Virus record (IMG/VR): IMGVR_UViG_3300020442_001503
Location: 1-33,845 of that record
Direction: 5' to 3' (one strand)
From: a virus
Length of the DNA stretch: 33,845 nucleotides
Position numbers and translations under genes: made by a program. Shown in pieces: positions 6,001-32,328 of this stretch (positions are counted from its first letter, which is position 1; each line of letters opens with the position of its first letter). The notes under the pieces were generated by a model, which did not search any database, was not told the DNA's origin, and worked only from the letters and a program-made list of their open reading frames with translations.

Positions 6001-9000
6001 TCTCAGATAGAGTATGTTGATAGTGAATATAACGGAACATACAATATTTTTGATGTAACTAATACAACATTTACAATTTCACCAACTACCACTCCTACAG
6101 TATTATCATATGATGATGATCAATGTGATGTCTTAGAATATAATACAAAGTCATCTACTGCAATAAATGGTTCTATTGCAAAAGCAAAGATCATCTCTGA
6201 AGGTTATGGTTTTAACCAATTACCAAAACTTTCTAAGATAACAACAGTTGATGGTAGAGATGCAAATGTTGTTGCAATTTCAACATCAGTTGGAAATATA
6301 AAGAACGTTAGAATTAGAGATATTGGATATGATTATTCTTCTGACTTAACTTTGAGACCAGAAGTATTTGTACCTCCAGTAGTTGGTGTTGATAACTTAG
6401 ATACAATAGAATCTTTTGAGATCTTATCCTCTGGTAAATATTATGTAACTCCACCCAACTTACTGGTAGTTAATAATGTAACTAATGAAGTTGTTGATGA
6501 TAGTTCTTTAATTGCAGAAGCACCAAACGGTACTATTTCGAATATAATTCAGATAGCACCGATCTTTGGTCTTAAATCACAACCACATAGAGTTGTTGCC
6601 ATTGACAACTCAAATGGTGTTGGAATTTCAACAATGACCTCAAATACTTCAGGTATTGTTACTTGTTATTTAAATACACCTCTGGTTGGTTTTAATGTTC
6701 CACCATTTAAGACTGGAGATAAGATTTATGTTGAAGGAATTGAATTAGATAGTTCCGATGGAACAGGATTTAATTCTGCAGATTATGGACATAGACTGTT
6801 TAATATTACTTCATATGTAAATAGCAATCCAGCGATACTTGAATTTAGTATTGTTGATGATAGTGGAATTGGATTAAGTACCAATACTGGAATTGCTAAG
6901 ACGGTTCAATCTGGATATGCAAATATTGTCAATGAATCAATTTATCCATCAATTGAGATTAACAAGAAGAGGGGAGTATTTTCTGAAAATGAGCAACTCT
7001 TTATCTCCCGCAACGGTAGTGGATTTATTGAACAGAATGTCTTTGTTACTAAAGTTAGAACTGAATACATTAAAGTAAAAGGAAGATTTGCACTTAGAAT
7101 TGGAGATAAAGTAAAAGGAAAAGTAAGTGGTGTGATTGCTGATATAACAAGTGTGAGCGAAAATAGATCCAAGTATAAGATAGATTATTCTTCCAAACAA
7201 GAACTTGGATGGAGAAAAGAAACTGGTATGCTTGGTAATGATTATTATGTCGTACCAGACAATGATTATTTCCAGAATCTTTCATATTCTATTAAGAGTC
7301 CAATTACTTGGGATGAGTTCTCAAATCCCGTAAATGGTGTACTTCATCCAGCAGGATTGAAAAACTTTGCTGATGTTGGAATTACTTCATCTGCAAATGG
7401 TTCAGTTGGTCTTGCCGGAACAACATCTGCAATCGCAGTTCTTGATATTATTGAAGAAAAGAGAGTTGATACCATTAACTACTTTGATACTGTTACAGAT
7501 TCCGATACAAAGACAAATCCAGAACAGTCTAAATTCCTGAAGTTTAAAAATAGAAAACTAGCAAACTTCACTGAATGTAGAACCAATAGAGTTCTTATTC
7601 ATGACGATATTAGTGACAAGTTCTCTAATAAAGATAACCAAGATTTGTTCCTTGAAGTTGATGACATCTCTCTAATCGACACTAACGTAAGATATACTAT
7701 TCAAATTATTGATCCAGATACGTCAGAGTCTCAACTTTCTGAATTGGTAGTTCAATCTACCAATACAAATATCTTCTTATTTGAAAAATTTACTCTATCA
7801 AATCTACAGAATCCTAACAAGTTGGGAACATTTACTGCAGAAATTGATAATTTCTCAAGAAAAACCTTAGTTTTCACCCCAGAAGATCCATTTAATAAAG
7901 ATCATGATATTAAAGTTATCAAGAAAACTTATCTTACATCCACAAGTGGAATTGGTACACAATCTGTAGGACAAGTAAGTATTACAGGATCTAATGTTAA
8001 TGGTATTGGTACTGTCGGCACCGCCACAAGTATTGGAAATCTTGTCAAGTTCCCTGAAGGAGAATTCAACTCATTATTTGCTAGTGTAGAAATTACAAAT
8101 TCAGTTTTAGCAGAGACTGAATATATTGAGGCAATGTTAAATTATGATGGAACAGACTTGTATCTTAGTGAGTATTATTTTGATACTCAAACATTAGCAT
8201 ATAGTGCTTCTACTGTAGGAATTTTAACTGCGAAGTTAGAAAATGGATTAGTCAATCTGAATGTAATCAATACAGATGATGAATACACAATCACTGCTAG
8301 ATCCAATATTGTCGGATTTGGTACAACCTCTGTAGGCATCGGAACATATAGTTTCTTAGTTGCTGGACAGTCTTCTGGAGAAGAATTCTCTGCAAGAAAA
8401 GAATCAACTTATGCACATGGAACTGGTCCTATTAGAGTTGGAACTTTTAGCACTATTAGAGATACATCAGTATCTTCTCTTGTAAGAGTATCTGCAGGAA
8501 GTACAATAGTAATGCATCAGGTTGCAGCACTATTCAATATACAAGAAGAAGAAGTTACAGTTACTGATGGACCATTCTCCGCTGTTAATACAACTATTGG
8601 AATTGGAACATTTGTTGGAGAATATAGTGGAGGAAGTAATTTCTACGTTAACTTTATTCCAGATGCAGGATATGATGTTGAACTTCAATCTTTTAATGAA
8701 GTAGTAAACACCTTTAGTGATTTTGATAACGAACCAGATGAATTGCAATATGGATCTGCAAATGAAGAAATCTTCTTAACTGCGTATGATGGTATCAATG
8801 GTGATAGAGGAAATAAAGATAACTTTACATTGAAGCATGATGGAAATGTTATTTACACTAAGGTATTCAATCCAGCACAATCTACACAACTAGATCTTTC
8901 AACTGGTGTATTCACTATTCAGGATCACTTCCTTAATACTGGTGAAGAATTGATTTATAAACCAGATTCTACATTTGTTGGTGTTGCTGCTAGTGCCGTT

Positions 9001-12000
9001 GGTATTGGACAGACTCTGAATAGTGTAGGTGTCTTGACTGATAGACTTCCAGAAACTGTATTTCCAATTGCTCTCACACCAGATACATTTAAGTTATCTA
9101 CAAGAAGAGATTATGCCAATATTGGAATTGGAGTTACATTCACAGATACTGGTGCAGGAAATGCACATAAACTTGAGATGACTAATAAGTTATCCAAGAC
9201 TGTTATTTCTCTTAATGGTATTGTACAGCAACCATTAACCTTTACACCTATCAATCATTCACTTGCATACAATAGTGGATCAATTTCTGCAGGTATTGCA
9301 ACATTTAATATTACTGGTATTTCTTCAGTTCAACCCAGAGATATTCTTAAAATTGATGATGAATACATGAAGGTTGTTGAAGTTGGTGTAAGCACTAACG
9401 TTGGTGGACAACTTCTTGGACCTATTAATGGTGTTATTGTAGCAGGAAGTGCGGCAACATTCCCAACAGTTTCTGTTATTAGGGGAACATTTGGAAGCAC
9501 TGCAGCATCACACACTGACGGTGCAAATGTTCAGATTTATAGAGGATCTATCAACATTGTTGAAAATAAAGTTTACTTTGCTGAGGCACCAAGAGGCAAT
9601 ACAAGAGCAAGGAGAAATGCAACTAACATTCCTTATGCTAAGACACAATACTCAGGTAGAACTTTCTTAAGATCAAATTACGATACCAATATCGTATTTG
9701 ATGATATTTCTGACCAATTTACTGGTGTTGGAAGAACATATACAATGTCAGCATCTGGTTTGAATACTTCTGGTGTTGATATTGGTAATGGTCTTGTATT
9801 GATAAATGGTGTATTCCAAACACCAACAACTATTAATAATGAAGGTAATAATTACCAATTTGTCAATGATAATATCGCAGGAATATCCACAATTCAGTTC
9901 ACTGGTATTTCTTCATCAGATGGCACAAAGATTCAATCTGATTTCGATGTAAATCAAAATCAACTTCCAAGAGGTGGTCTAATTGTTTCCTTAGGTTCTA
10001 CTCCTGGTCTTGGATATGCACCACTTCATGGAGCAGAAGTAAAGGCAGAACTTACTGGTGGAGTTATAACCGATGTAATTGGTGTTAGTACTTATCAAAA
10101 TCCTGTTGGTATTGAAACTGCAGATTATAATAAGACAACAGGTGTTATTAAAATTGAAACAAGCACCAATCACTATCTGAAGGGTGGTGATAGAGTTCAA
10201 TTAGTTGGTCTTCACTTTACTTGTGCTCAAGCACATGCTGGAGTCACCACAACAATCTTCCCAGATCACGATCGCTCATTTGATATTGTAAATATTCTTT
10301 CCAATAGAGAATTGGAAGTTCAGGTTGGTCCTAGCACAATCGCACATAATTATGTTGGATTTGGTAGTATTTTCCAATACTTTACTTTAAATACTGGATC
10401 TGGATATAGAGGACCTGTATCTATTGGTGTTACTGATCTTGCATTTGAACATAGATTTGTTAGATCTGCAGCAGATTCAATTACCGATGATGCATCAAAT
10501 ACATACACACCAACTGCAGCATCATTTACTTCGCATACAGGTCAACTGATACTTACAATTCCAGGTCACTCACTGACTACTGCAAACACAGTTGCTATTG
10601 ATACCGAATCTTTAGTATTCACCTGCTCTGAGGATGATTTCTTAACTGAACAATCATATCCAAGAGCAACTGATCCTGTTGCAGGTATTCAAACTGCTAT
10701 TACATCAGTAACTACCAATACTATCACAGTCAATGTTGGACCAGCTGGTGGTGCAGGACAAGGTGCTGCAGTTTCAGTAACAGTTGGTGCAGGTGGAACT
10801 CTTGCATTTAGTGTTGATCAGGGAGGCACTGGATACGTAAATCCAAGAATTATTATTCCAGAACCAGTATATGAGAATCTTTCTATTGAAGGTGTTTCTA
10901 GACTTGGTATTGGTACAACCACTGATACTGGAAGTAACTTACTTATGAATGTTACGATTGGTGCAGCAAGTACCAATGTTGGTATTGGATCCACATTATT
11001 TGAAGTTGATTCGTTCAAGATTACGCGACCTGGTTATTCTTTCCAAGTTGGAGATGTATTTAAAGTAGTTGGTCTTGTAACAGCAGCACATCTTAGTGAA
11101 CCAATTGAAGAATTTAAACTTGAAGTTGTTGAAATCTTCAATGACAAGTTTTCATCTTGGTCATTTGGTGAAATGGATTATATTGATAATACTAAAAATC
11201 TACAAGATGGTAAGAAGAAAAGATTCCCACTGTTCTATCAAGGTGAACTGCTAAGTTTTGAAATTGATCCAGATGATCCACTTTCTGGTGCTATTGATTT
11301 GGATGCACTTCTGATTATATTTGTAAATGGTGTTCTACAGGAACCTAAGAAGGCATTTACATTTACTGGAGGAACGTCTTTCCTCTTCTCTGAAGCACCC
11401 AAAGAATCTGACGATGTAGACATTTTCTTCTATAAAGGTCAAGATGGAGTTGATATTAGTGTTATTGATGTCCAAGAAACTGTTAAAGTAGGAGATAAAC
11501 TCCTAGTTAGAAAAAATCCTCTGTTCCCATCAACATTATCACAGACACGAAATAGGACATTGTTTGATATCTTAGGATCCGATATAATTGAAACTGATAA
11601 TTATGTTGATATTGGTATTGATGAAACCAACTTCAAACCATTAGATTGGACTAAGCAAAAGGTTGATATGTATATTAAGGGTGATGTTGTTTATAAGACA
11701 AGACCTGTCTATGAACCAAATATCTATCCGACAGCAAAGGTTATTGGTTCTATTGATGATTCTGCTACCAATATATTTGTTGATGATGCACAATTCTTTA
11801 ACTATGAAGAAGATAATTATGGAGTTCTGATTAATAATGTTGATGCTTTAGTTGTAGACAGTAATGATCCAGTTTCTGCAGCATTTACAGCAACTGTTGG
11901 TACCTCTGGAACTATTACTGCTATTACAGTTACAAATGTTGGTTCTGGATACTCTGCAACTGGAACTATTCCAATTAAGTTTAGTGCTCCAGTGACTATC

Positions 12001-12702
12001 GGTACTGGTATCGGAACTGTTGCTGCAGGTGAAGCAACCTTAACAAATGGATCTGTCTCCAGTGTTTCAATTACTAATATTGGTCTTGGATATACAAATA
12101 CAAATCCACCACAACTAATTACAGTTATTCCAGAGGCATCAACTGAAGAAATTGATAATATTTCAAATGTAGAAGGATTTGCTGGAATTATCACTGGAAT
12201 AAGTACAACTACTGGAACTGGCGGTCATGGACTTGCATTAAAAATTAACTTTAATGCACTTGCTAGTGATGCTAATGATCTTGCAGTTGGTTATCCAATT
12301 TTAATCAGTAATACTAAAGTTGGTACTGGAGTAACATCCGTTGATAGTGGAGATGGATCAACTGTTGGAATTGGAACAACATTCCTTGATAATGTTTATA
12401 TTGTCCATTCCAAGACTAATCAAGGACCAATAGCTGAAATTACTTGTAATATTCATACAAATAGTGCAGTAGTAGGATTAGCAACTACAGGGTTCTATAA
12501 TCCACTTAATGTTGGTTTAACAACTTCTCTAGGAACCCTTTCTTGGGGAAGATTATTTAATTATGATAATCGCAGTCAACCAGTTTCATTTGGAGCAACA
12601 GGGTTAACTGTTGATGCTGAATTAAGTACATTCCCTACAATTCAGAGAAGGGGATATGGATTGAAGAATAATGGATCTATTAGTGCCCGCTCTACCATAT
12701 AA
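19..12702 (+). CDS. Giant modular baseplate/fibre protein with YHYH domain (VrlC-like, gp7 position)
   Basis: This 4227-residue protein lies directly upstream of gp8, where T4 has baseplate wedge gene 7 (about 1030 residues), so it is probably the baseplate component that carries peripheral modules. The first ~290 residues (QLPEFLVADFPKAVDFF; later YQSKGIAESVKILFKVLYG) form a baseplate-like N-terminus interrupted by a small beta module. A YHYH-type domain lies at about 1235-1345, with GWAYDGNPIYGPYGY at 1247-1260 and HNGR at 1314-1317. The rest is a chain of short beta modules of at least four kinds: GxGY modules (near 745, 1070-1190, 1420, 2055-2150, 3600, 3970), HGF-x-NGD-type modules (near 615, 843, 967, 1831, 2970, 3385), NGVxQxP modules (C-terminal third) and modules ending in RG-x-xG. 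No signal peptide or transmembrane segment is seen. Marine T4-like phages carry large proteins here, often named VrlC; that name is by resemblance. The structural role is well supported, the exact T4 equivalence is not. Confidence 0.8.
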   Translation: MSQFEKRVQLNKIIESQLPEFLVADFPKAVDFFRQYYISQEHQGGNVDLVDNLDRYIRVDNLVPEVVVGKTTLSSDITNTSSTITVGSTKGFPDEYGLLKIDDEIITYTGKTDTTFTGCIRGFSGVTGYNVGISSFINDVNKQNVIFSTSVAASHTANSDVTNLSVIFLQEFYKKLKRTFTPGLEEADFVSDLDVGNFVKSARSFYQSKGIAESVKILFKVLYGVEAQVLDLEDRLIKASSADYIRREVAVVESISGDPFGLEGQTIYKSNDTSTSASVSDVEIFTRNNKSYYKLGLFIGYNERDLIEGIFKVPGYSKALEPASVGAEVISVDSTIGFPESGTVISGNNTITYTSKSVNQFIGCSGVVEAISATDPVRANETAFGYEGGDINKRVDVRLTGVLSEFVPLGEISLVDVGEEIFVKNIGEVIENPQTKTYKQVFANSWIYNTASRFKVSSISGPTFTLMTYIDKSSLRVGDEVDVLLRNSETVVSSNATVNTINQSLNQITLSNLSPTFVAGPNTKYDIRRKIRKVTSSSVSLNHGNNAFISDILNVYTDDNSTFGYVASNSLPNYTINDEIITSSVPNGNGVNFGDYDSVKQAYSIIKFPSNVSFIDGDQVVYNSDTPLPGLNVGEIYYVRIVAPNQIRLYVSKSLLSGTAFVTFKANGSTSSHKFTLKRHRNPILDSNKILRKIPITKNLLDKVGSKRNVGNIGVLVDGVEITSPDSRNSIYSGPISKFEVFNGGSNYDIVRPPSIKISAGIGTTALVEPIIIGSVKDVLVDPQDFDIDDILNITVTGGNGSGCVLKPILGDRFREMEFDSREIGFNGGIDINDETISFLQPHNLVNGEHIIYNQNGNNPLPIGIFDDAAQAITDYLGSGDEYVAQVVNASTIKLYKTDGDAQAGINTIGFTTTTSAPGIHKFRTLSKRTLRSIKVLNEGSGYQYRKLRVPSSGISTEYNTLTFENHGFSNGDVVNYSTSGTVASGLSTSNRYSINLIDNNSFRLINVGVGGTVTTDLTREKYVEFGDKGTGYHIFQYPEIEINANVSYGSSIKGSFTFTPIVTGPIVDTYLYENGSGYGSDILNLEKTPTITLVNGKSAQLNAVVSNGRIIDVQVLSKGSEYFSTPDLIVSDGKEGSGAILRPVIVNNQIDSVIIINGGIGYDEASVNIQIKPRGAGAIFGINIRELKVNDAQRFGEYAKLRTPKIFSNLEENNTETGVVYGMYGYSEDLANFYGDDGQDHSPIIGWAYDGNPIYGPYGYDDPENIQSGVVILKTGYELNATVVNDRPSTSTFDAGFFIDDYRFTNSGHLDEHNGRFCKTPEFPDGVYAYFAGVTTSITSNKLEPFYPYFIGNKFRSPFISENSILNQSFDFNNSNLVRNTFPYNANNPNAGYDFYTESYEDYEQISEIESTFKGNITDIRIDDGGTGYRIGEAIDFDFTGTGGNGLRAEVSELVGKDISALQTTLNRYENSVLVWDTDNQVSAYFRSGFDLKNNDTVIVTGLSTSTAGLYGSQRIGLTTETVSLAQSMTSYNNLVGGKYEDIVVRNIPQNVSIGGSIVIGTETMKVLNNYYNGVIRVKRYAETTVGHSDGSTVSIQNDRLLLSAKTPKFESKRNDLVYFNAKDSVGLGTTSGGAISKTITVNQTSTNISIPYNAIYLPNHPFKTGQRVTFTKSNLAGVDSLIVGNDDTSLNTFFIPDTNTLTSDVYVINKGRNYIGLTTQIGLTTNTYGLFFYSDGTDNSEYLLESNFSQLTADIDRVTTVVSTGSSHGLQGGDEIKLTVRPNTIVGLGTTAALSLSLGTEDKTLLVNRVGVDSSQFSTANNTVTINNHGYKTGDKLYYTSTEVATGLSTGTYYAVVETSNTFRLAETKYESNPITEKTISIAGVGNSEHSFALVNPKIDVVRNSDLKFLVHDPSLNGYQLKIYKDNDFTNEYITSFDDSNFNVVGVGTAGLGIAAPASVTLKYSDNVPSKLYYTLEKSGYISTSDIDVNQYSQIEYVDSEYNGTYNIFDVTNTTFTISPTTTPTVLSYDDDQCDVLEYNTKSSTAINGSIAKAKIISEGYGFNQLPKLSKITTVDGRDANVVAISTSVGNIKNVRIRDIGYDYSSDLTLRPEVFVPPVVGVDNLDTIESFEILSSGKYYVTPPNLLVVNNVTNEVVDDSSLIAEAPNGTISNIIQIAPIFGLKSQPHRVVAIDNSNGVGISTMTSNTSGIVTCYLNTPLVGFNVPPFKTGDKIYVEGIELDSSDGTGFNSADYGHRLFNITSYVNSNPAILEFSIVDDSGIGLSTNTGIAKTVQSGYANIVNESIYPSIEINKKRGVFSENEQLFISRNGSGFIEQNVFVTKVRTEYIKVKGRFALRIGDKVKGKVSGVIADITSVSENRSKYKIDYSSKQELGWRKETGMLGNDYYVVPDNDYFQNLSYSIKSPITWDEFSNPVNGVLHPAGLKNFADVGITSSANGSVGLAGTTSAIAVLDIIEEKRVDTINYFDTVTDSDTKTNPEQSKFLKFKNRKLANFTECRTNRVLIHDDISDKFSNKDNQDLFLEVDDISLIDTNVRYTIQIIDPDTSESQLSELVVQSTNTNIFLFEKFTLSNLQNPNKLGTFTAEIDNFSRKTLVFTPEDPFNKDHDIKVIKKTYLTSTSGIGTQSVGQVSITGSNVNGIGTVGTATSIGNLVKFPEGEFNSLFASVEITNSVLAETEYIEAMLNYDGTDLYLSEYYFDTQTLAYSASTVGILTAKLENGLVNLNVINTDDEYTITARSNIVGFGTTSVGIGTYSFLVAGQSSGEEFSARKESTYAHGTGPIRVGTFSTIRDTSVSSLVRVSAGSTIVMHQVAALFNIQEEEVTVTDGPFSAVNTTIGIGTFVGEYSGGSNFYVNFIPDAGYDVELQSFNEVVNTFSDFDNEPDELQYGSANEEIFLTAYDGINGDRGNKDNFTLKHDGNVIYTKVFNPAQSTQLDLSTGVFTIQDHFLNTGEELIYKPDSTFVGVAASAVGIGQTLNSVGVLTDRLPETVFPIALTPDTFKLSTRRDYANIGIGVTFTDTGAGNAHKLEMTNKLSKTVISLNGIVQQPLTFTPINHSLAYNSGSISAGIATFNITGISSVQPRDILKIDDEYMKVVEVGVSTNVGGQLLGPINGVIVAGSAATFPTVSVIRGTFGSTAASHTDGANVQIYRGSINIVENKVYFAEAPRGNTRARRNATNIPYAKTQYSGRTFLRSNYDTNIVFDDISDQFTGVGRTYTMSASGLNTSGVDIGNGLVLINGVFQTPTTINNEGNNYQFVNDNIAGISTIQFTGISSSDGTKIQSDFDVNQNQLPRGGLIVSLGSTPGLGYAPLHGAEVKAELTGGVITDVIGVSTYQNPVGIETADYNKTTGVIKIETSTNHYLKGGDRVQLVGLHFTCAQAHAGVTTTIFPDHDRSFDIVNILSNRELEVQVGPSTIAHNYVGFGSIFQYFTLNTGSGYRGPVSIGVTDLAFEHRFVRSAADSITDDASNTYTPTAASFTSHTGQLILTIPGHSLTTANTVAIDTESLVFTCSEDDFLTEQSYPRATDPVAGIQTAITSVTTNTITVNVGPAGGAGQGAAVSVTVGAGGTLAFSVDQGGTGYVNPRIIIPEPVYENLSIEGVSRLGIGTTTDTGSNLLMNVTIGAASTNVGIGSTLFEVDSFKITRPGYSFQVGDVFKVVGLVTAAHLSEPIEEFKLEVVEIFNDKFSSWSFGEMDYIDNTKNLQDGKKKRFPLFYQGELLSFEIDPDDPLSGAIDLDALLIIFVNGVLQEPKKAFTFTGGTSFLFSEAPKESDDVDIFFYKGQDGVDISVIDVQETVKVGDKLLVRKNPLFPSTLSQTRNRTLFDILGSDIIETDNYVDIGIDETNFKPLDWTKQKVDMYIKGDVVYKTRPVYEPNIYPTAKVIGSIDDSATNIFVDDAQFFNYEEDNYGVLINNVDALVVDSNDPVSAAFTATVGTSGTITAITVTNVGSGYSATGTIPIKFSAPVTIGTGIGTVAAGEATLTNGSVSSVSITNIGLGYTNTNPPQLITVIPEASTEEIDNISNVEGFAGIITGISTTTGTGGHGLALKINFNALASDANDLAVGYPILISNTKVGTGVTSVDSGDGSTVGIGTTFLDNVYIVHSKTNQGPIAEITCNIHTNSAVVGLATTGFYNPLNVGLTTSLGTLSWGRLFNYDNRSQPVSFGATGLTVDAELSTFPTIQRRGYGLKNNGSISARSTI
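3721..4053 (+). other. YHYH-type domain inside the giant protein
   Basis: Residues about 1235-1345 contain DHSPIIGWAYDGNPIYGPYGY, then DEHNGRFCKTPEFPDGVYAYF after some 50 residues. This pair of blocks is characteristic of YHYH proteins, which occur as free bacterial proteins and as insertions in cyanophage virion proteins. The literal YHYH tetrapeptide is not present; the flanking blocks carry the match. Function is unknown; a surface-exposed binding role is an inference. Confidence 0.7.
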
Positions 12703-24181: not shown

Positions 24182-25012
24182 ATGGCAAAACCATCAACTA
24201 GGCAAGGATTAATCGATTATTGCTTGCGTCAACTTGGTGCTCCCGTATTGGAAATCAATGTGGATGATGACCAAATTGATGACCTAGTTGATGATGCCAT
24301 CCAATATTTCAATGAGCGTCATTTTGACGGTGTTGAAAAGATGTATCTTAAGTATAAGATTACTGAAGATGATGTAAATAGAGGTAAAGGTAAAGGTACA
24401 GGGGGTGTAGGAATTGTTACCACCACTGCTACCGATACTTCAGGTAGAACGTATAATTTTTACGAAACAGAAAACTATATTCAGGTTCCCGATTCAGTAA
24501 TCGGTATTGAAAAGATTTTTAAATTTGATTCCAGTTCCATCTCTGGTGGAATGTTTAGTATCAAATATCAACTGTTTTTGAATGATCTTTATTATTTCAA
24601 TTCAGTTGAACTTCTTCAATATGCAATGACTAAGAGTTATCTTGAGGATATTGATTTCTTACTTACAACTGATAAGCAGATCAGATTTAATAAGAGACAA
24701 GATAGATTATATCTCGATATTGATTGGGGATCCCAACCTAAAGATGAATTTATTATTATTGAATGCTATAGAGCATTAGATCCTGCATCATTTACTCAGA
24801 TTTACAATGATAGTTGGATGAAACAATATCTGACTGCATTAATCAAGAGACAGTGGGGTAGAAACTTAAGTAAGTTCAAGGGTGTCAAACTTCCTGGTGG
24901 AATTGAATTGAATGGTGGAGAAATTCTCCAACAAGCAGAATCTGAGTTAGCAGACATTAAAGGAAGAATGATGTCTGAGTATGAATTACCACCTCTCGAC
25001 TTTATTGGATAA
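24182..25012 (+). CDS. 13: Neck (head completion) protein gp13
   Basis: A 276-residue protein (T4 gp13 has 309) of the T4 gp13 family, which forms a ring with gp14 below the portal after packaging and makes the head ready to join the tail. Diagnostic blocks are LRQLGAPVLEINVDDDQI at 15-32, with T4 having LRRLGAPIINVELTPDQI; YFNERHFDG at 42-50, with T4 YGEYHFDG; a C-terminal LPGGIELNGGEILQQA; and PPLDFIG at the very end, with T4 PPFGILVG. A Gly/Lys-rich loop (GKGKGTGGVG) near 68 is not typical. The stop overlaps the ATG of gp14 by one base (TAATG). Confidence 0.95.
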   Translation: MAKPSTRQGLIDYCLRQLGAPVLEINVDDDQIDDLVDDAIQYFNERHFDGVEKMYLKYKITEDDVNRGKGKGTGGVGIVTTTATDTSGRTYNFYETENYIQVPDSVIGIEKIFKFDSSSISGGMFSIKYQLFLNDLYYFNSVELLQYAMTKSYLEDIDFLLTTDKQIRFNKRQDRLYLDIDWGSQPKDEFIIIECYRALDPASFTQIYNDSWMKQYLTALIKRQWGRNLSKFKGVKLPGGIELNGGEILQQAESELADIKGRMMSEYELPPLDFIG

Positions 25013-26124
25013 TGGCTCTTAATCCTTTCTTTCTTGGCGGCACACAGTCTGAACAGAGACTTGTTCAGGATATTGTTAATGAGCACCTTAGATTCAATGG
25101 TATTGATGTAACTTACATACCAAGAAAATTTGTCAATAGAAAGACAATTATAGAAGAGGTACAAGCATCAAAGTTTGATGATAACTATGTAATTGAAGCG
25201 TATCTCAACAACTTTGATGGATACAGTGGTGCAGGAGATATTTTAACTAAATTTGGTGTTAGTGTAAGAGATGAATTAATTCTAACAATCTCTAAGGAGA
25301 GATTTGAAGATTTTATTGCACCATTTATGGCGGGTACAGATGATGGTACTGATGATAGTCTTCTTCCAACACCTACAAGACCAAGAGAAGGAGACTTAAT
25401 ATATTTCCCTCTTGGACAAAGATTATTTGAAGTTAAGTTTGTAGAGCATGAAAATCCATTCTTCCAACTTGGAAAAAATTATGTTTATGAATTAAAGTGT
25501 GAACTCTTTGAACTTGAATTGGATGATGTTCTGGATACTTCTATCCATGAAATTGATAAAACTATTCAGCAAGAAGGTTATATTACAACTCTTCAATTAG
25601 TTGGAGTTGGAAGAACTGCTGCAGCGACTGTTCAACTCAGTGGATCTGTTAATAGTGGTTATGTTAAAGAAATTTTCTTAAATAATGATGGAAAGGGATT
25701 CACCAGTTCACCAGTAATCACATTTTCACCATCTCCAACTGGTCAACCAGGAGACAGAGCAACAGCAGTAGGATTCTTAACAACTTCTGGTGGTGTTACT
25801 TCTATAGATAGAATTCTTTTAACAAATGCTGGTGCAGGATATACAACTCCACCAACAATCACAATTAGTGGTGGAGTAGGTGCAGCAGCAACTTGTTCAA
25901 TCATAACTAATGGTAAGGGTGCTGTTAGATTCACTGTTATTGATGGTGGTGTTGGATACTCTACAGCACCTACAGTTACAGTTTCTAGTCCACCAATTTA
26001 CGCATCAGTTGTGGATGTTGGAGTAATAACTACTGTTGCACCAGGATTTGCTTATACAACATCTCAGAAATTTGATTCTGAACTGGTCACATTTGATCGG
26101 GAACTTACCTTTGACAAGAATTGA
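25012..26124 (+). CDS. 14: Neck protein gp14 with GxGY-repeat C-terminal extension
   Basis: A 370-residue protein whose first ~185 residues match T4 gp14, the outer neck protein that binds gp13. Blocks in common are FNGIDVTYIPRKFV (28-41; T4 MRGVECYYVPREYV), YLNNFDGYSG (64-73), KFGVSVRDELILTI (80-93), REGDLIYFPLGQRLFEV (125-141) and NPFFQLGKNYVYEL (148-161). From about 218 to 330 three GxGY modules follow (GKGFTSSPVITFSP, GAGYTTPPTITISG, GVGYSTAPTVTVSS). T4 gp14 has 256 residues and no such repeats. The C-terminus (FDRELTFDKN) lacks the acidic DFSExNPFG-like ending I associate with gp14 of marine relatives; that ending is instead on the 229-aa protein encoded at 31639-32328. Confidence 0.92.
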   Translation: MALNPFFLGGTQSEQRLVQDIVNEHLRFNGIDVTYIPRKFVNRKTIIEEVQASKFDDNYVIEAYLNNFDGYSGAGDILTKFGVSVRDELILTISKERFEDFIAPFMAGTDDGTDDSLLPTPTRPREGDLIYFPLGQRLFEVKFVEHENPFFQLGKNYVYELKCELFELELDDVLDTSIHEIDKTIQQEGYITTLQLVGVGRTAAATVQLSGSVNSGYVKEIFLNNDGKGFTSSPVITFSPSPTGQPGDRATAVGFLTTSGGVTSIDRILLTNAGAGYTTPPTITISGGVGAAATCSIITNGKGAVRFTVIDGGVGYSTAPTVTVSSPPIYASVVDVGVITTVAPGFAYTTSQKFDSELVTFDRELTFDKN

Positions 26125-26130
26125 TAAATA
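26123..26130 (+). promoter_or_regulatory. Late promoter-like octamer (GATAAATA) before the fibre-subtilase pair
   Basis: GATAAATA differs from the T4 late element at the first base only, overlaps the TGA stop of gp14 (26122-26124), and lies 20 bases before the ATG at 26151. It would drive the coupled fibre-like and subtilase genes. Confidence 0.6.
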
Positions 26131-26150: not shown

Positions 26151-26888
26151 ATGGCAAGATTAGGCATATCAACAGGAACTACGCCAAATGATGGTACTGG
26201 GGATACCCTCATCGCAGGTGCAGTTAAGATTAATAAGAATTTTGAAGAAATTTACAGTGCCATCGGCAATGGCACTACTATCTTTGCAGGAAGTCCCAAT
26301 TTAAATAATCTTGGTATTGTTACTGCCACAGAATTTTATGGCGACGGATCCAATCTTACTGGTGTCGGTGCCGATGTAACAATTCAAGATAATGGGACAG
26401 GAATTGGAACTGCCAGGGTTATCAACTTCGGAGATTACCTTGACGTATCTTCAATTACATCGACTGGCATTTGTACAGTAACGTCAACGTTCGTTGGAAG
26501 TAATCAACTTGGCGTAAGAACGGATGTCTCTCAGACCACGGGTTCTATTGCAAATGATGCTGCAGCAAATATTTCATTTGCAGGATTTAAGTCATACACT
26601 CTTTATAAGGTACAAACTTCTGAAGCGGCTTGGGTTACTTTATATACTAATGCAGCAACAAGGACGGCAGATGCAGGTAGACAGATCACTAGTGATCCTG
26701 CAGCGGGTTCTGGTGTAATTGCAGAAGTTATAACAAGTGGAGCGCAGACTAAACTTATTACACCTGCAACAATTGGATTTAATGACGACAATCCAGTTTC
26801 CACCACAATTTATGCAAAAGCAGTCAATAAGAGTGGTAGTACACAAAATATTACAGTAACTTTAACAATCCTTCAATTAGAAACCTGA
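26151..26888 (+). CDS. Fibre-like virion protein (245 aa)
   Basis: The N-terminus ARLGISTGTTPNDGTGDTL, then KINKNFEEIY, is a leader widespread in appendage proteins of marine phages. A short repeat segment follows (NNLGIVTATEFYGDGSNLTG) of the kind used in fibre shafts. The C-terminal ~110 residues (FKSYTLYKVQTSEAAWVTLY; then DAGRQITSDPAAGSGVIAEV) resemble a compact beta-sandwich tip found in cyanophage structural proteins. The gene is preceded by its own late promoter-like octamer, and its TGA overlaps the ATG of the protease gene (TGATG), so the two should be made in related amounts. It may be a short fibre or the anchor for the protease; both are inference. Confidence 0.75.
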   Translation: MARLGISTGTTPNDGTGDTLIAGAVKINKNFEEIYSAIGNGTTIFAGSPNLNNLGIVTATEFYGDGSNLTGVGADVTIQDNGTGIGTARVINFGDYLDVSSITSTGICTVTSTFVGSNQLGVRTDVSQTTGSIANDAAANISFAGFKSYTLYKVQTSEAAWVTLYTNAATRTADAGRQITSDPAAGSGVIAEVITSGAQTKLITPATIGFNDDNPVSTTIYAKAVNKSGSTQNITVTLTILQLET

Positions 26889-28627
26889 TGGAAAATACTA
26901 GAAGATATGGAGTAATAGTATGTGATTGTTGCCATTTAGATTCTTTATATGACGATTTAGAAACTCCTGGAGGTACTGAATGTATTCCAGAAAGAGAAGT
27001 TAATTGTGCAGAAAGAAAACCAACTAGCACAGTAACTTTATATGATCTGACTGATGAAGAGGCAGATAATATAAGAAATGATGATAGGGTTATTCATGTT
27101 GAAGATTATGATGCTATCAATTCAATGATAGTGAAGCAACTTGACTATGAACAATCTTCTACAAATTATGATAAAGGTGCTGCCCAAAATGCAGATCATA
27201 TCAATTGGGGACTACTAAGATGTACTGAAGGTACAAATAGATATGCTTGGGGTGCCGATGGATTTGCAACTCAAACAGGTATTTCAACTGTTACTTGTAG
27301 TGGAAAAAATGTTGATGTTGTCATTGTAGATACTACAGTTGATGGAAATCATCCAGAATTTGCAGTCAATGCTGATGGTACTGGTGGAAGCAGATTTGTT
27401 AGATATAATTGGTTTCAACATAGACATGAAGTAAATAGCGATCATCCTGCAGAATATGATTATGACTCTCCTCTACAAGATTCATCTGTTTCTGACCATG
27501 CAACACACTGTGCAGGAACTGTTGCAGGAAATACTCAGGGATGGGCAAGAGATGCTAACATCTATAATATTGATGTTTTTGGTAGTGGAAATCTTCCAAA
27601 TCTTTCTCCAGGTGAGGGTTTTGAATATGTGAAACAATTTCATTTAAATAAACCAATCAATCCAGAAACGGGTAGAAGGAATCCAACCATTATTAATAAT
27701 AGTTGGAGTGTAAAATCAGAACGTTCTCGTGTAAGACACGTTTCTGTAGCATCAACAGGAAGACCTATAGAGCAAGTCAGTTGGAGAGGAACCACATATG
27801 ATGGTCCATTTACATTAGAGCAGTTGGAATCCTTTGGTATTATGGATGCAACAACGTATGGTGGAGAATATGGAGAAGGAAGGGTTAGAGCTGGAGGACA
27901 TAGTGTCTTTCAAATAGTTGCAGCACAAGAAATGATTGCTGCTGGTGTTATTAGTGTTGGAAGTGCTGGTAATGATAAAACGAAAATTTGTAAAGTAAGT
28001 TCTGATCAAGATTGGAGTAATGCTTACCTAGGTGACTATAGATCTAATTTCAGTGGTCAGATGACTAGAGGAAGTCAGCATTATCATAGAGGAAATTCTG
28101 TAGGAACTCCACCTATGGATTCATATCCTATGCCAATAGCATTTCCCAAAGCATCCCCAATTTGTGTTGGAGCAACAAACTCTGCTGTTGTTGATGCAAA
28201 AAGATCGTTTAGTAATTGTGGTCCAAGAGTAGATGTATATGGACCAGGAACTAATATTCAATCTGCTAGACATAGTGGATATGGTTTTGTTCTTGATCCA
28301 AGAAATAGTGAGTATGGTTTATCTAAGCAGAATGGTACTAGTATGAGTGGTCCACAAATATGTGGATTACTTGCCTGTGTTTTAGAAATATATCCAAGAA
28401 AAACAATGGGAGAGATTAGAGAATATATGGAAACTTATTTTAAACAAGATCAGTTGTTAGATACTAGTGGTGGTTATACTGATGAAAACTCATTACAAGG
28501 CGGTGCAAATCTTTATGCATTCCATAAACCAGAAAGAGAAAAAGAAGGTGTAACGATTCCAAGAATTGGTGAATGGATTAGACCATCTAGTGGTCAATTA
28601 TGGCCAAGACAAAAATATTTGTATTGA
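26888..28627 (+). CDS. Subtilisin-like serine protease (S8 family) with propeptide
   Basis: A 579-residue protein with a full subtilase catalytic set: Asp148 in VVIVDTTVDGNHPEF, His204 in SDHATHCAGTVAG, oxyanion Asn362 in SVGSAGND, and Ser485 in NGTSMSGPQICG. The His block has Ala where most subtilases have Gly (HATH). Residues about 45-75 (TVTLYDLTDEEADNIRNDDR, then VIHVEDYD) resemble the end of an I9-type propeptide, so it is probably made as a zymogen that cleaves itself near residue 75-80. There are 13 cysteines, with a CDCC cluster at 12-15, which is high for a phage virion-region protein. No signal peptide is seen. Placed between neck genes and coupled to a fibre-like gene, it may be a virion-borne protease acting on host surface proteins, or it may process virion proteins; the sequence does not decide. 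Its start is fixed by the TGATG overlap. Confidence 0.9.
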   Translation: MENTRRYGVIVCDCCHLDSLYDDLETPGGTECIPEREVNCAERKPTSTVTLYDLTDEEADNIRNDDRVIHVEDYDAINSMIVKQLDYEQSSTNYDKGAAQNADHINWGLLRCTEGTNRYAWGADGFATQTGISTVTCSGKNVDVVIVDTTVDGNHPEFAVNADGTGGSRFVRYNWFQHRHEVNSDHPAEYDYDSPLQDSSVSDHATHCAGTVAGNTQGWARDANIYNIDVFGSGNLPNLSPGEGFEYVKQFHLNKPINPETGRRNPTIINNSWSVKSERSRVRHVSVASTGRPIEQVSWRGTTYDGPFTLEQLESFGIMDATTYGGEYGEGRVRAGGHSVFQIVAAQEMIAAGVISVGSAGNDKTKICKVSSDQDWSNAYLGDYRSNFSGQMTRGSQHYHRGNSVGTPPMDSYPMPIAFPKASPICVGATNSAVVDAKRSFSNCGPRVDVYGPGTNIQSARHSGYGFVLDPRNSEYGLSKQNGTSMSGPQICGLLACVLEIYPRKTMGEIREYMETYFKQDQLLDTSGGYTDENSLQGGANLYAFHKPEREKEGVTIPRIGEWIRPSSGQLWPRQKYLY

Positions 28628-28637
28628 TTAGAGTTAA

Positions 28638-28645
28638 GATAAATA
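28638..28645 (+). promoter_or_regulatory. Late promoter-like octamer (GATAAATA) before the 983-aa gene
   Basis: GATAAATA lies between the stop of the protease gene and the ATG at 28667, 21 bases upstream of it. Unlike the other copies it does not overlap a stop codon. Its last bases are one arm of an inverted repeat (28641-28660). Confidence 0.6.
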
Positions 28646-28666: not shown

Positions 28667-31618
28667 ATGCCCGGAAGTAATAAGTTTACAAAAGCTATGC
28701 ATCATCTGAGGTCAACTCAGATTGATGAACGCATCAGGGCGCTTAATGAAGGACCCACAAATAATACTTCTGGATATTATGTAATAGAACCTGATACGGT
28801 TACTGTTATACCTGCGGTCAGATCAGATCTAGATCTAACTGCAGATGATCCAAGTCTTTTAGGTAAAGACACTTCAGGTCTCTTTGATCAATCTGGAAAT
28901 CCATTGACTGAAATGCCTCCTGGGGACACCAGTTTCATTTTAGGTCCAATGGTTAGTGTTTATTTTCCAGACGGAGAATATAGTGCTATTGGATATATTC
29001 AAAAAGATACAAGAAAAGTAATTAATTTAGCAAGAATTCCTGGTAGAGTTAGTGAATGGGCTACTGGTGGAAATGTTGAAGGATTTGTAAGTTATAGTCA
29101 ATTAACGTTAGAGCAAGCGTTATGGTATAGAGATAAATTGATCAATGGAAATACTTCTACATATAGAGTTTTTTATGTTGGTGTTTTTGAGCAATTGAAT
29201 TCTGAGAGTGATGTAACTGATCCTAGTACTGGTGTTGATGTTGATGAATATGGAAGATGGGAAGGAGAAGTTACTGATCAAGGAGAAATATTAGAACCAG
29301 AAAAAACTGAAGTAACTCCAGGAAAGAAAGGACCAGACCCTGATATGCCCCCTGGTATTGCAAATCCAGCATTTCAGAAATTAAGGGATAAATTTAAGAG
29401 AGGTGAAAATTTAACTATCGATGACTTCCCGTCAGCAGCAGATTTTTCTGCGTTTAAAAATGGTGGTGGAAATGCTGCTTTGAGACAGGGAAAAACTATT
29501 GGTGAAGTTATTAGGCAGGGTGTTATCAACATCAATGGTTATAATAGTGGTGCTAGACTTCCAGATTATGATGATTATATGGGTCCAGCGTTTGGAAATG
29601 ACTCTGTAGCAAATCGTGAAAGACAAAAAGCAGTAGATGCTAGAAATGATGCTCTTTATAATTATTGGCGAGACAACTATGTAAATCCAGACACGTCAGT
29701 TAATCCTCAAGGTCTTACTCAGAAACAGATAGATGATATGCCGGACTGGTATAGGGATTTATCTACCCCACCAGATCCAAATAATTTTGCTGGTGCGTTT
29801 AAAGATACTCCAGTTGGTCAGGCAGTTAATGATTTCATGAACGACCCAACTCATGGGTGGTGGAGACAAGCAGCTTTAGAACTTGGCGTAGGTGCATTAG
29901 GTGCAGCACTAGGCAAAGGAAAAGTACCATCAAAAGGAAAAGGATTGGCTAGAGGAAAAGGATTCACCGTCGGTGCAACAGGATTAAAGAAGGGTGGATT
30001 TGATGCATTAAAAGGTGGTCAAAATCTACACAAAGGTAGTAAAGGTATATTAACCAATCCTTTAGGACAGAAACAAGTATATGCTGCGCCAACAGTTGGT
30101 CAGCGTGGACCAAGTGCATTTAGACCTGGTACTGGTGGATCAAGATATGTAGAATATGGTTCTAATCCCTTTGGTGGAGCGCAAGGAAAAAGTGGTCAAG
30201 CAGGTGGTGTTGTTGGTAGTGTTGTTCCTCCTCGTGCAAGACGTATTGGTGGACCCGAACCACAATCTGCTGTAGATCCTAAAACCTTTCAGAAAGGTCA
30301 AAGAATCTTTCAGAAAGCGTTTGATCCTAAGTATGCTAATACCCCCACAGCGCAAAGGATACGTCAGCAAGCAGGTCAAGCAGGATTTGGTGCTTCACCA
30401 AATATTCCTGCATCCCAATTGCCAACAACATCTCAACCATCTGTAAAATCTGGCGGTAAGCCTTTTAGCAAATTTTCACAATCAGCATTAGGTTCTGGTG
30501 CTTCTGCAGCGGCAGCAGCAGGTATGATTGGATCACAACCTGAAGAGTCGGGAGAAAAAGTAAGCACTAAATCTAATCGTAGAGGACGTAGAAAACAACA
30601 GAAACAGAAACAACAGAAACAAGAGATACCGCCTGTGGAAATGCCAATAATAAAACAACCTAGAGGTGGAAGTAATATGCCAACACCTTCTGCATATGAG
30701 TTAATTGATCAAGATCCTAAGAAAACAACAATTGCTTCCCGTGGTAAATCTATTGGACGTAGTTTAAGATCTTCTAATGAACTTGAAGGTAAATTACTTG
30801 CAGAAAATCGCAGAAGAATTTTACATAACATTAAAAAACCATATGAGTTACCAGAAGCAAAGACTGAAAAGATTAAGCATCGTCCAAATGCAAACAGATG
30901 GTCTACAAGATCTGTTGGTGATGGTCTAATGAAGAGGGCAGAAGTTCCAACATCCTTTAAGAGACTTGAGGATAATGTATGGAAAAAACAAGATCGCCAT
31001 TGGAATGAAAGATATTCTCAAGAAAGAAAGAATATGATTCTGGATGCGGTCGGAACTTCAGATCATGCTTGGGAGTATATTACAGATCGTAGTGCATCTG
31101 GTAATGACGCAAAGATGTATGAAAACTTTGGTCAGGGTATAAAAAATCAAATTATTGAGAAGAAAAAAATAGGTAATGATTACATCATCAAGATGTACAA
31201 TGAAGAAGGGAATGTTGAAATTGTAACTCAATCAATTCTGAATGAAAGACTTCAAAGACAACACGAATTGAAAGAGCAAGAAACCATCTATGCTCCTAAA
31301 GATCCTTTAGTTGCAAGAATTAGGAATAAGTTGTATTCACAAATTGATTATCCAAATAAACCAGCAAAACTTGGATATCCAGATGAACCACCCAAACAAA
31401 TGATAGGTGGATATCACCCAGAATTTGGAGATAGGCACTCTTATTATAATAGATTGGATAGGCATAGTGCAGATACTATGCAAAATGCTCCCACTCAAGA
31501 TATGAAAATTGATATGAAAGTTCAAAAGCAAACCACAATGCAGAAAACATTGAATATTATCAATAACATAAGAGCAGCAAAAGCACAATATGCAAAGGCA
31601 ACAAAGAAAAATAAATAG
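28667..31618 (+). CDS. 983-aa mosaic protein, probable virion component
   Basis: I do not recognise a full-length family. The N-terminal ~180 residues (MPGSNKFTKAMHHLRSTQID; SGYYVIEPDTVTVIPAV; later YFPDGEYSAIGYIQKDTRKV) look like a compact folded domain. An acidic/Pro linker follows near 205-235. Around 399-420 is a hydrophobic Gly/Ala segment (ALELGVGALGAALGKG) that could contact membrane or form a helix, then Gly/Lys-rich repeats to about 480. A second Ala-rich stretch (GASAAAAAGMIG, near 612) and a very basic tract (RRGRRKQQKQKQQKQ, near 638) precede a charged helical C-terminal part from about 705 (RRRILHNIKKPYELPEAK; SQERKNMILDAVGTSDHAWEY). That C-terminal part resembles small free-standing proteins of marine T4-like phages (from memory, not checked). 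It has its own late promoter-like octamer. An ejected internal protein, a neck appendage or a DNA-binding virion protein are all possible. Confidence 0.65.
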   Translation: MPGSNKFTKAMHHLRSTQIDERIRALNEGPTNNTSGYYVIEPDTVTVIPAVRSDLDLTADDPSLLGKDTSGLFDQSGNPLTEMPPGDTSFILGPMVSVYFPDGEYSAIGYIQKDTRKVINLARIPGRVSEWATGGNVEGFVSYSQLTLEQALWYRDKLINGNTSTYRVFYVGVFEQLNSESDVTDPSTGVDVDEYGRWEGEVTDQGEILEPEKTEVTPGKKGPDPDMPPGIANPAFQKLRDKFKRGENLTIDDFPSAADFSAFKNGGGNAALRQGKTIGEVIRQGVININGYNSGARLPDYDDYMGPAFGNDSVANRERQKAVDARNDALYNYWRDNYVNPDTSVNPQGLTQKQIDDMPDWYRDLSTPPDPNNFAGAFKDTPVGQAVNDFMNDPTHGWWRQAALELGVGALGAALGKGKVPSKGKGLARGKGFTVGATGLKKGGFDALKGGQNLHKGSKGILTNPLGQKQVYAAPTVGQRGPSAFRPGTGGSRYVEYGSNPFGGAQGKSGQAGGVVGSVVPPRARRIGGPEPQSAVDPKTFQKGQRIFQKAFDPKYANTPTAQRIRQQAGQAGFGASPNIPASQLPTTSQPSVKSGGKPFSKFSQSALGSGASAAAAAGMIGSQPEESGEKVSTKSNRRGRRKQQKQKQQKQEIPPVEMPIIKQPRGGSNMPTPSAYELIDQDPKKTTIASRGKSIGRSLRSSNELEGKLLAENRRRILHNIKKPYELPEAKTEKIKHRPNANRWSTRSVGDGLMKRAEVPTSFKRLEDNVWKKQDRHWNERYSQERKNMILDAVGTSDHAWEYITDRSASGNDAKMYENFGQGIKNQIIEKKKIGNDYIIKMYNEEGNVEIVTQSILNERLQRQHELKEQETIYAPKDPLVARIRNKLYSQIDYPNKPAKLGYPDEPPKQMIGGYHPEFGDRHSYYNRLDRHSADTMQNAPTQDMKIDMKVQKQTTMQKTLNIINNIRAAKAQYAKATKKNK
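31610..31617 (+). promoter_or_regulatory. Late promoter-like octamer (AATAAATA) before the 229-aa gene
   Basis: AATAAATA overlaps the TAG stop (31616-31618) of the 983-aa gene and lies 21 bases before the ATG at 31639. It differs from the T4 consensus at one base. It would lead into the 229-aa gene, gp15 and gp16. Confidence 0.5.
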
Positions 31619-31638: not shown

Positions 31639-32328
31639 ATGACAAGAACAATACCTGGTAGTGGTGCTCAAGTAACGGCGGTTCTCAATCCGTCTTTTGG
31701 AGTAGCGTCTTTCAATATTATCAGTGGTGGGACTGGATATGCAACCACAGACCCCCCAAAAATTGAAGTACAAGGAACATCAACACCAACTGTTGCTGGA
31801 TCGTTTTATCCAATCATTCAAAATGGTTCTATTGTATCAATAAAAGTATTATCTTCTGGATCTGGATATATTCCAGCAGTTTCTATCGCACAGACTGCAG
31901 TTGGTATTGCCTCTGTTGGTAGAAGTGGTAGTGATGATGTTGTTAAGTCAATTTATGTTGTCAATCCAGGTTTTGGATATACAGAAACTGCAACTGTTAC
32001 TATAGCAAACCCAGACATTTTAACAGGTGTTGGAACTTACTTCTTCAATGAGATCGTATATGGTGAAAGATCTCTTACTGAAGCAAGAGTTAAGGATTGG
32101 GATCAAGATACTAAGATTTTGCAGATAACAAATGTTGGTATTGGATCCACAAGAAATGCATTCTATCCAGGTGAAACAATTATTGGTAAAGAGTCTGAAG
32201 CTAGATATTCTCTTCAGAATTTTGAACAGTATGATACAAATGATAAATATAGCGAGAATGATTTATTTGAATCGGAAGCAGATGCTATCTTAGATTTCAG
32301 CGAATCGAATCCATTTGGGACATTTTAA
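31639..32328 (+). CDS. GxGY-repeat protein with gp14-like C-terminal tail
   Basis: A 229-residue protein. Residues about 16-125 hold three GxGY modules (GGTGYATTDPPKIEVQG, SGSGYIPAVSIA, GFGYTETATVTIANP), similar to those at the end of gp14 here. Residues about 136-190 are a second beta module ending FYPGETIIGKESEARY. The last 20 or so residues (LFESEADAILDFSESNPFG, then TF) match the acidic DFSExNPFG-type ending I associate with gp14 of marine T4-like phages. It is therefore either a displaced gp14 C-terminal part or a paralogous neck/baseplate component. It is not gp53: none of the T4 gp53 blocks are present. Its TAA overlaps the ATG of gp15 by one base. Confidence 0.72.
   Translation: MTRTIPGSGAQVTAVLNPSFGVASFNIISGGTGYATTDPPKIEVQGTSTPTVAGSFYPIIQNGSIVSIKVLSSGSGYIPAVSIAQTAVGIASVGRSGSDDVVKSIYVVNPGFGYTETATVTIANPDILTGVGTYFFNEIVYGERSLTEARVKDWDQDTKILQITNVGIGSTRNAFYPGETIIGKESEARYSLQNFEQYDTNDKYSENDLFESEADAILDFSESNPFGTF
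32242..32249 (+). promoter_or_regulatory. Possible intragenic late promoter-like octamer before gene 15
   Basis: GATAAATA occurs inside the 229-aa gene, 78 bases before the ATG of gp15. The same octamer is used at two gene boundaries in this window. Being inside codons (Asn-Asp-Lys-Tyr) it may be chance. Confidence 0.25.

Follow-up and report, generated by a model that had tools for sequence, protein, structure and literature searches.

A late two-gene unit of a probable cyanophage pairs a fibre-like adaptor with a subtilase and might build a fibre-mounted protease

The known phage enzymes that open the way to the host surface mostly degrade polysaccharide. In the T-even phages, the fibre gene 37 is directly followed by gene 38, whose product is thought to cap the fibre C-terminus. 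The closest described relatives of the protein analysed here form the family phrog_9158 (T4-GC 292), which is listed in PHROGs with function unknown. Relatives (below 60% identity) were found in 43 phage records, all of them cyanophages or marine single-cell viruses, and several had already been annotated as 'subtilisin-like serine protease' or 'peptidase' (Sf-FR1, S-H38, S-CREM1). At least 562 viral contigs contain family members according to an alignment-based, profile-style scan; an alignment was required as the query, and the scan with the single protein gave no matches. A literature search for virion subtilases of cyanophages revealed nothing beyond annotation. An S8 peptidase, T4-GC518, was reported only in P-HM1 and P-HM2 (PMC3037559).

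The window is the whole stretch of DNA analysed, 33,845 nucleotides of the IMG/VR virus record IMGVR_UViG_3300020442_001503. Its tail-sheath stabiliser gene, a neighbour of the subtilase gene, is most similar to those of P-SSM2-like marine T4-type phages, which makes a picocyanobacterium the probable host. The subtilase of the window is a new member of this known, uncharacterised family: the phrog_9158 profile matched residues 4-555 (E 1.5e-89), the family N-terminal domain is present, and the identity is 74% to a protein of an uncultured contig and 36-38% to those of the nearest named phages. The gene is directly preceded by an adaptor gene, and the pair is enclosed by two late promoter cores:

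26124..26130, plus strand: late promoter core of the T4 type (ATAAATA), located 27 nt upstream of the adaptor start codon
26151..26888, plus strand: adaptor or fibre-like partner, 245 aa, recognised by its gp9/10 motif, PHROG families and C-terminal domain CTD-A
26888..28627, plus strand: subtilase (S8) zymogen gene, ATG start, 579 aa, complete open reading frame
28639..28645, plus strand: late promoter core (ATAAATA) belonging to the gene that follows (28667), 28 nt before that gene, marking the end of the unit

Because the promoter cores flank the pair and none lies between 26151 and 28639, the adaptor and the subtilase are probably expressed as one late transcript. The evidence is the placement of the sites rather than their number, since ATAAATA is not enriched in the window (8 observed, 14.9 expected); five of the seven plus-strand sites (12699, 22018, 26124, 28639, and 31611) are located 24-34 nt before the starts of open reading frames. 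The cores placed in this way delineate the window's late transcription units. We consider it fairly probable that 26151-28627 is a late two-gene unit building a fibre-mounted protease, which cuts a host envelope protein.

A search for relatives at the same locus had been proposed in the initial annotation, and the five closest contigs (L019-L023) have the same gene order: a gp14-like gene, the adaptor, the subtilase, and a large variable protein. As far as these contigs extend, a protein of 226-237 residues and then a gene of gp15 length follow the variable protein. In other cyanophages, the adaptor-subtilase pair is located among tail-fibre or baseplate genes. Several other features of the locus were also observed. 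The next gene of the window (28667-31618) encodes a 983-residue protein that had no matches in Pfam or PHROG; the proteins at this position in close relatives range from 772 to 1196 residues. The family phrog_460 (Hc2, gp14 neck family) matches the window twice, at 25012-26124 (profile 14-296) and at 31639-32328 (profile 260-377). The adaptor, subtilase, and 983-residue genes thus lie between the two matches, as if they were a cassette within a split or partly duplicated gp14; close relatives show similar lengths and the same gene order. At 19-12702, the window encodes a baseplate-type giant protein of 4227 residues with a YHYH domain (PF14240, E 5.7e-26).

The catalytic tetrad of the window subtilase lies in four motifs (VDTTVDG, SDHATHC, AGND, and GTSMSGP, respectively), and the protein was aligned with its named-phage and metagenome relatives:

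27329..27331, plus strand: catalytic Asp148, from the sequence and the alignment of relatives
27497..27499, plus strand: catalytic His204, from the sequence and the alignment of relatives
27971..27973, plus strand: oxyanion-hole Asn362, from the sequence and the alignment of relatives
28340..28342, plus strand: catalytic Ser485, from the sequence and the alignment of relatives

The tetrad is retained in every subtilase that reaches these sites (101/101, including 100 relatives and the window copy); the six flagged exceptions were five non-subtilase open reading frames and one gene cut at a contig end. These residues are therefore constrained, and their presence is not due to chance. The protein shows the features of the S8 family, namely the Asp/His/Ser triad in its motifs, the oxyanion Asn, the profile match (PF00082, E 1.4e-27 in Pfam), and the fold; in NCBIfam, all S8 matches were sub-threshold. 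The earlier observation of an intact subtilase zymogen at this position is thus confirmed, and no hydrophobic segment was found when the N-terminus was scanned, consistent with the claim that a signal peptide is absent. That the zymogen is active, as had been expected, is predicted from the invariant tetrad, the propeptide, and the fold.

It had further been held that this activity is separate from prohead maturation, and the genes of a relative agree, because S-SCSM1 encodes a separate prohead protease (gp040) in addition to its subtilase. A replacement of T4 gp21 by the subtilase is hardly conceivable. Nothing beyond its being a phage protease points to this role; the window protein matched S8 alone in Pfam, with no match to the prohead protease (gp21-type) family, and in relatives the gene is found among tail-fibre genes.

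A structure prediction of the propeptide and catalytic domain, which had been suggested as a check, was performed using AlphaFold2 with a 49-sequence alignment as input. The model (mean pLDDT 84) contains a candidate propeptide fold followed by a proteinase K-like domain:

26888..27145, plus strand: predicted propeptide, about residues 1-86, from the secondary structure and the alignment of residue 87
27146..28531, plus strand: proteinase K-like catalytic domain, approximately residues 87-548, from structure superposition

The best superposition of model residues 83-548, on an enzyme of the proteinase K type, gave Z 35.7 and rmsd 2.1 Å over 274 residues, and the catalytic domain has about 190 inserted residues compared with this fold. 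Residue 87 of the window protein coincides with mature residue 1 of proteinase K. Residues 1-78 are predicted to adopt the order beta-alpha-beta-beta-alpha-beta, as in I9 propeptides. The I9-like propeptide proposed earlier thus stands as a reading of the fold; at the sequence level the likeness is weak, since Pfam Inhibitor_I9 matched only 9 of 27 family members (best E 0.0015), and the window sequence itself was unmatched. The reported count of 13 cysteines is also correct, whereas the significance given to the N-terminal CDCC is not sustained: the motif is peculiar to the window sequence, its 74%-identity closest relative has CDSC instead, and other relatives have none. As candidates, a metal site at CDCC was rejected due to this lack of conservation among relatives, and conserved disulfides (C426/C444, C40/C112, and C492/C497) were rejected because no consistent co-occurrence was found.

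The partner gene and the shared tail described below are additions to the initial annotation. Residues 6-43 of the adaptor contain the gp9/10 N-terminal motif (PF07880 in Pfam), its PHROG matches are to tail-fibre and baseplate families, and its stop codon overlaps the subtilase start by one base. Its C-terminal part is the following domain:

26499..26885, plus strand: CTD-A, adaptor residues 117-245, predicted docking domain, from the beta-sandwich model and conserved linkage

The CTD-A is modelled as a beta-sandwich with pLDDT mostly 93-98. A CTD-A gene was found directly before the subtilase in 92 of the 99 loci with upstream sequence, with spacing mostly within 4 nt; of the other seven loci, one is a pair of subtilases in tandem and six belong to the P-SSM2 branch, in which the partners have CTD-B. 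The domain is about 120-130 residues in the partners and C-terminal in every case. The partner N-termini are varied (gp9/10-like, MxINFP, MPxxxQLP, and others), and 23 of 75 partners contain collagen-like repeats. No relationship between CTD-A and CTD-B was detected by hhalign. Mirror-tree analysis did not single out CTD-A, the subtilase correlating similarly with CTD-A (r 0.52) and with the partner N-terminus (r 0.54). In fold comparison, CTD-A resembles a phage cement protein, the jelly-roll domain of TkSP, and plant-virus coats (best Z about 7); a function based on this likeness was rejected, because the beta-sandwich is too common. Tandem subtilase pairs were also observed behind a single CTD-A gene (L035:4607-8963 and L319:463-3701); in the latter, the first subtilase has the A-type tail and the second belongs to the other branch. 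In S-BM3, the gene of a separate 2648-residue 'peptidase S8' (SBM3_00202, T4-GC 519; L103:1-2418), with Ig domains in the part seen, is located directly upstream of the CTD-A fibre gene.

The linkage was also examined in reverse, with queries led by a CTD-A without subtilase and by the CTD-A of an S53 locus. The gene that follows CTD-A could be assigned in 105 of 106 readable cases (S8 in 87, S53 sedolisin in 3, and family B in 15); one remaining case was unclear, and another was unreadable at a contig end. The S8 count includes 86 proteins recognised by profile and one (L221) whose visible fragment is the family N-terminal domain. The S53 sedolisin-like genes are located directly behind CTD-A (L116:4383-5660, L193:4377-5636, and L215:4187-5461). 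The S53 assignment is firm (E 8.8e-31 to kumamolisin for L116). The L116 protein contains the E..LD, SGDSG, and GTSASAP motifs and aligns with mature kumamolisin; the long propeptide of kumamolisin is missing.

Family B, an unrelated and tip-like family, comprises proteins that have 490-800 residues, an N-terminus of the type MAVTKTEYLVNGGNTGW..., and a FCARTT-like end; their genes also lie directly behind CTD-A (L103:5380-7206, L106:5383-7680, L107:20379-22349, L011:5485-7788, L009:4172-6502, and others). No Pfam family and no recognisable enzyme domain were found for them, and comparison with solved structures yielded only a weak cupredoxin-like similarity within an internal segment, an insert in some members. 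The S-SCSM1 member of family B has a virion-protein tag. Family B occupies the position of the subtilase with no recognisable enzyme domain, and this would fit a purely structural fibre tip or receptor-binding protein, in which protease activity is irrelevant. For the subtilase, such a role is very improbable: the invariant tetrad argues against it, and so does the fact that a second protease family was recruited independently and retains its catalytic motifs.

The two protease families share a short C-terminal peptide:

28580..28609, plus strand: RPSSGQLWPR tail tag (residues 565-574), a predicted peptide for docking on CTD-A, from conservation and sharing with the S53 proteins

The C-terminal residues of the window protease are RPSSGQLWPRQKYLY. 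The tail consensus is RPxSGxxWPR, and the AlphaFold2 pLDDT of this stretch is largely below 50 despite the invariance of P573 and R574 in 49 sequences. Among the complete CTD-A-linked S8 proteins, 66 of 73 have the strict motif, and the other seven have [FYW]PR near the end. The motif is also found at the end of all three S53 proteins (RRPATGMVWPRTKTL, RRPTSGQMWPRTKTL, and KRPVSGQVWPRTKTL), and the divergent S-CAM1 subtilase behind CTD-A has RRPVEGATYPR. The background was one in 557 open reading frames. None of the 57 CTD-B-linked subtilases has the A-type tail; these have a different conserved tail, typically NPFxN. The CTD-B pairing was observed in P-SSM2-branch subtilases behind fibre-like genes (L004, L006, L015-L018, and L246-L318).

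Two protease families share this tail only alongside CTD-A, for which a cause other than function is difficult to find, and we infer that the protease docks through its tail on the CTD-A of the fibre-like protein. Within S8, the co-variation of tail and CTD-A could reflect common descent, an explanation that leaves out only the S53 and S-CAM1 cases. The A-type tail is absent from family B, which follows CTD-A nonetheless; therefore, CTD-A binds family B in another way or not at all. There may be a general fibre mount: CTD-A would recognise RPxSGxxWPR, the S8 and S53 enzymes would have gained the tag, another tip family would use the same gene position, and CTD-B and NPFxN would be a parallel system.

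The presence of these proteins in virions is well supported for relatives. In the S-SCSM1 record, 'virion protein' tags are attached to gp144, a subtilase with LamG, and to the upstream gp145. Mass spectrometry identified 45 proteins of S-SCSM1 (PMC9602691), and about 47 virion-protein tags were counted by hand in the record; the numbers are close, not equal, and the tag thus appears to track mass-spectrometric detection. Because gp144 of S-SCSM1 falls within the CTD-B branch, this evidence applies to the wider family and not to the branch of the window. The proposal of a virion-borne enzyme is favoured by the gp144 tag and by the near-constant linkage to fibre or adaptor genes. Non-structural enzymes, NMNAT among them, have been reported in cyanophage virions (PMC9602691), and a protease might likewise be packed in the virion, injected, and act on host proteins inside the cell. 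This is quite improbable for the subtilase, given that its partners are of the fibre or baseplate type and surface-binding modules are present; no association with head proteins or internal proteins was observed.

For the fibre-mounted protease, the following steps are suggested. The adaptor would attach to the tail through its gp9/10-type N-terminal motif. The propeptide would keep the protease folded and inhibited inside the infected cell, so that the enzyme could be tolerated before lysis, until the enzyme cleaves off its own propeptide at about residue 86/87. The RPSSGQLWPR peptide would hold the enzyme on CTD-A, and on the finished virion the enzyme would face outward and most likely cut a host envelope protein during attachment. 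Activation by sea-water calcium is a speculation.

In some relatives, the protease has LamG (lectin) and esterase-like extensions. These modules, together with the swaps of enzyme family, favour an action outside the virion over one specific assembly substrate. A maturation protease, whose presence in the virion is incidental, would instead cut nearby fibre proteins or its own partner, in which CTD-A could, for instance, be a chaperone that is removed. The tight coupling of the two genes, the constant location of CTD-A at the extreme C-terminus, where removable fibre chaperone domains are found, and the cytoplasmic synthesis of an enzyme without signal peptide would suit this role. It is nevertheless unlikely: the CTD-A of the 15 loci with non-protease family B partners would stay uncut, the S53 swap brings a different chemistry and argues against a single specific cleavage, and lectin-like or esterase-like extensions make little sense on an assembly factor. 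The other neighbour genes vary among relatives, and a different protease family or a non-protease can take the place of the subtilase; the earlier suggestion of a processor of the nearby modular proteins is thus less favoured. The broad interpretation given with it is partly supported, and a protease opening or trimming host surface protein is the best inference.

If phages cut protein in this way, the wide occurrence of such a protease among cyanophages would point to protein on the cyanobacterial surface as an obstacle or receptor that is worth cleaving. If enzymes are docked by the tail tag, it would provide a simple rule for fibre-tip proteins and could identify many 'hypothetical' virion proteins. 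If the mount reading is true, T4-like phages from marine and other waters would be equipped with fibre tips that cut protein and can be exchanged.

Neither the two-gene architecture nor the shared tail appears to have been described in the literature searched. Comparison with known systems shows both common and distinct features. The members in P-SSM2 (PSSM2_297), Sf-FR1, S-H38, and S-CREM1 are alike in full-length homology, tetrad, N-terminal domain, and gene pairing; these genes are located in the tail-fibre block, whereas the window copy and its adaptor are located between neck and sheath-stabiliser genes. The proteinase K-like S8 enzymes (ProteinT 8c4z, aqualysin I, and proteinase K) have the fold and tetrad in common with the window enzyme, and their I9-type propeptide resembles its predicted N-terminal fold. 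The window enzyme differs in that it lacks a signal peptide, has about 190 inserted residues and a conserved flexible tail tag, and is encoded by a phage late gene. Tailspike depolymerases such as LKA1gp49 (PMC5701251) are virion enzymes acting on the host surface, a role that is known there and proposed here. They cut polysaccharide and the enzyme is usually within the spike, whereas the window enzyme is a separate protein with a putative docking tag. The gp37-gp38 arrangement is similar in that a fibre gene with a conserved C-terminal domain is directly followed by the gene of a candidate tip protein. No gp38 family was found among the Pfam and PHROG matches of the window proteins, and the similarity is a working likeness, not homology; unlike gp38, the putative tip protein of the window is a protease.
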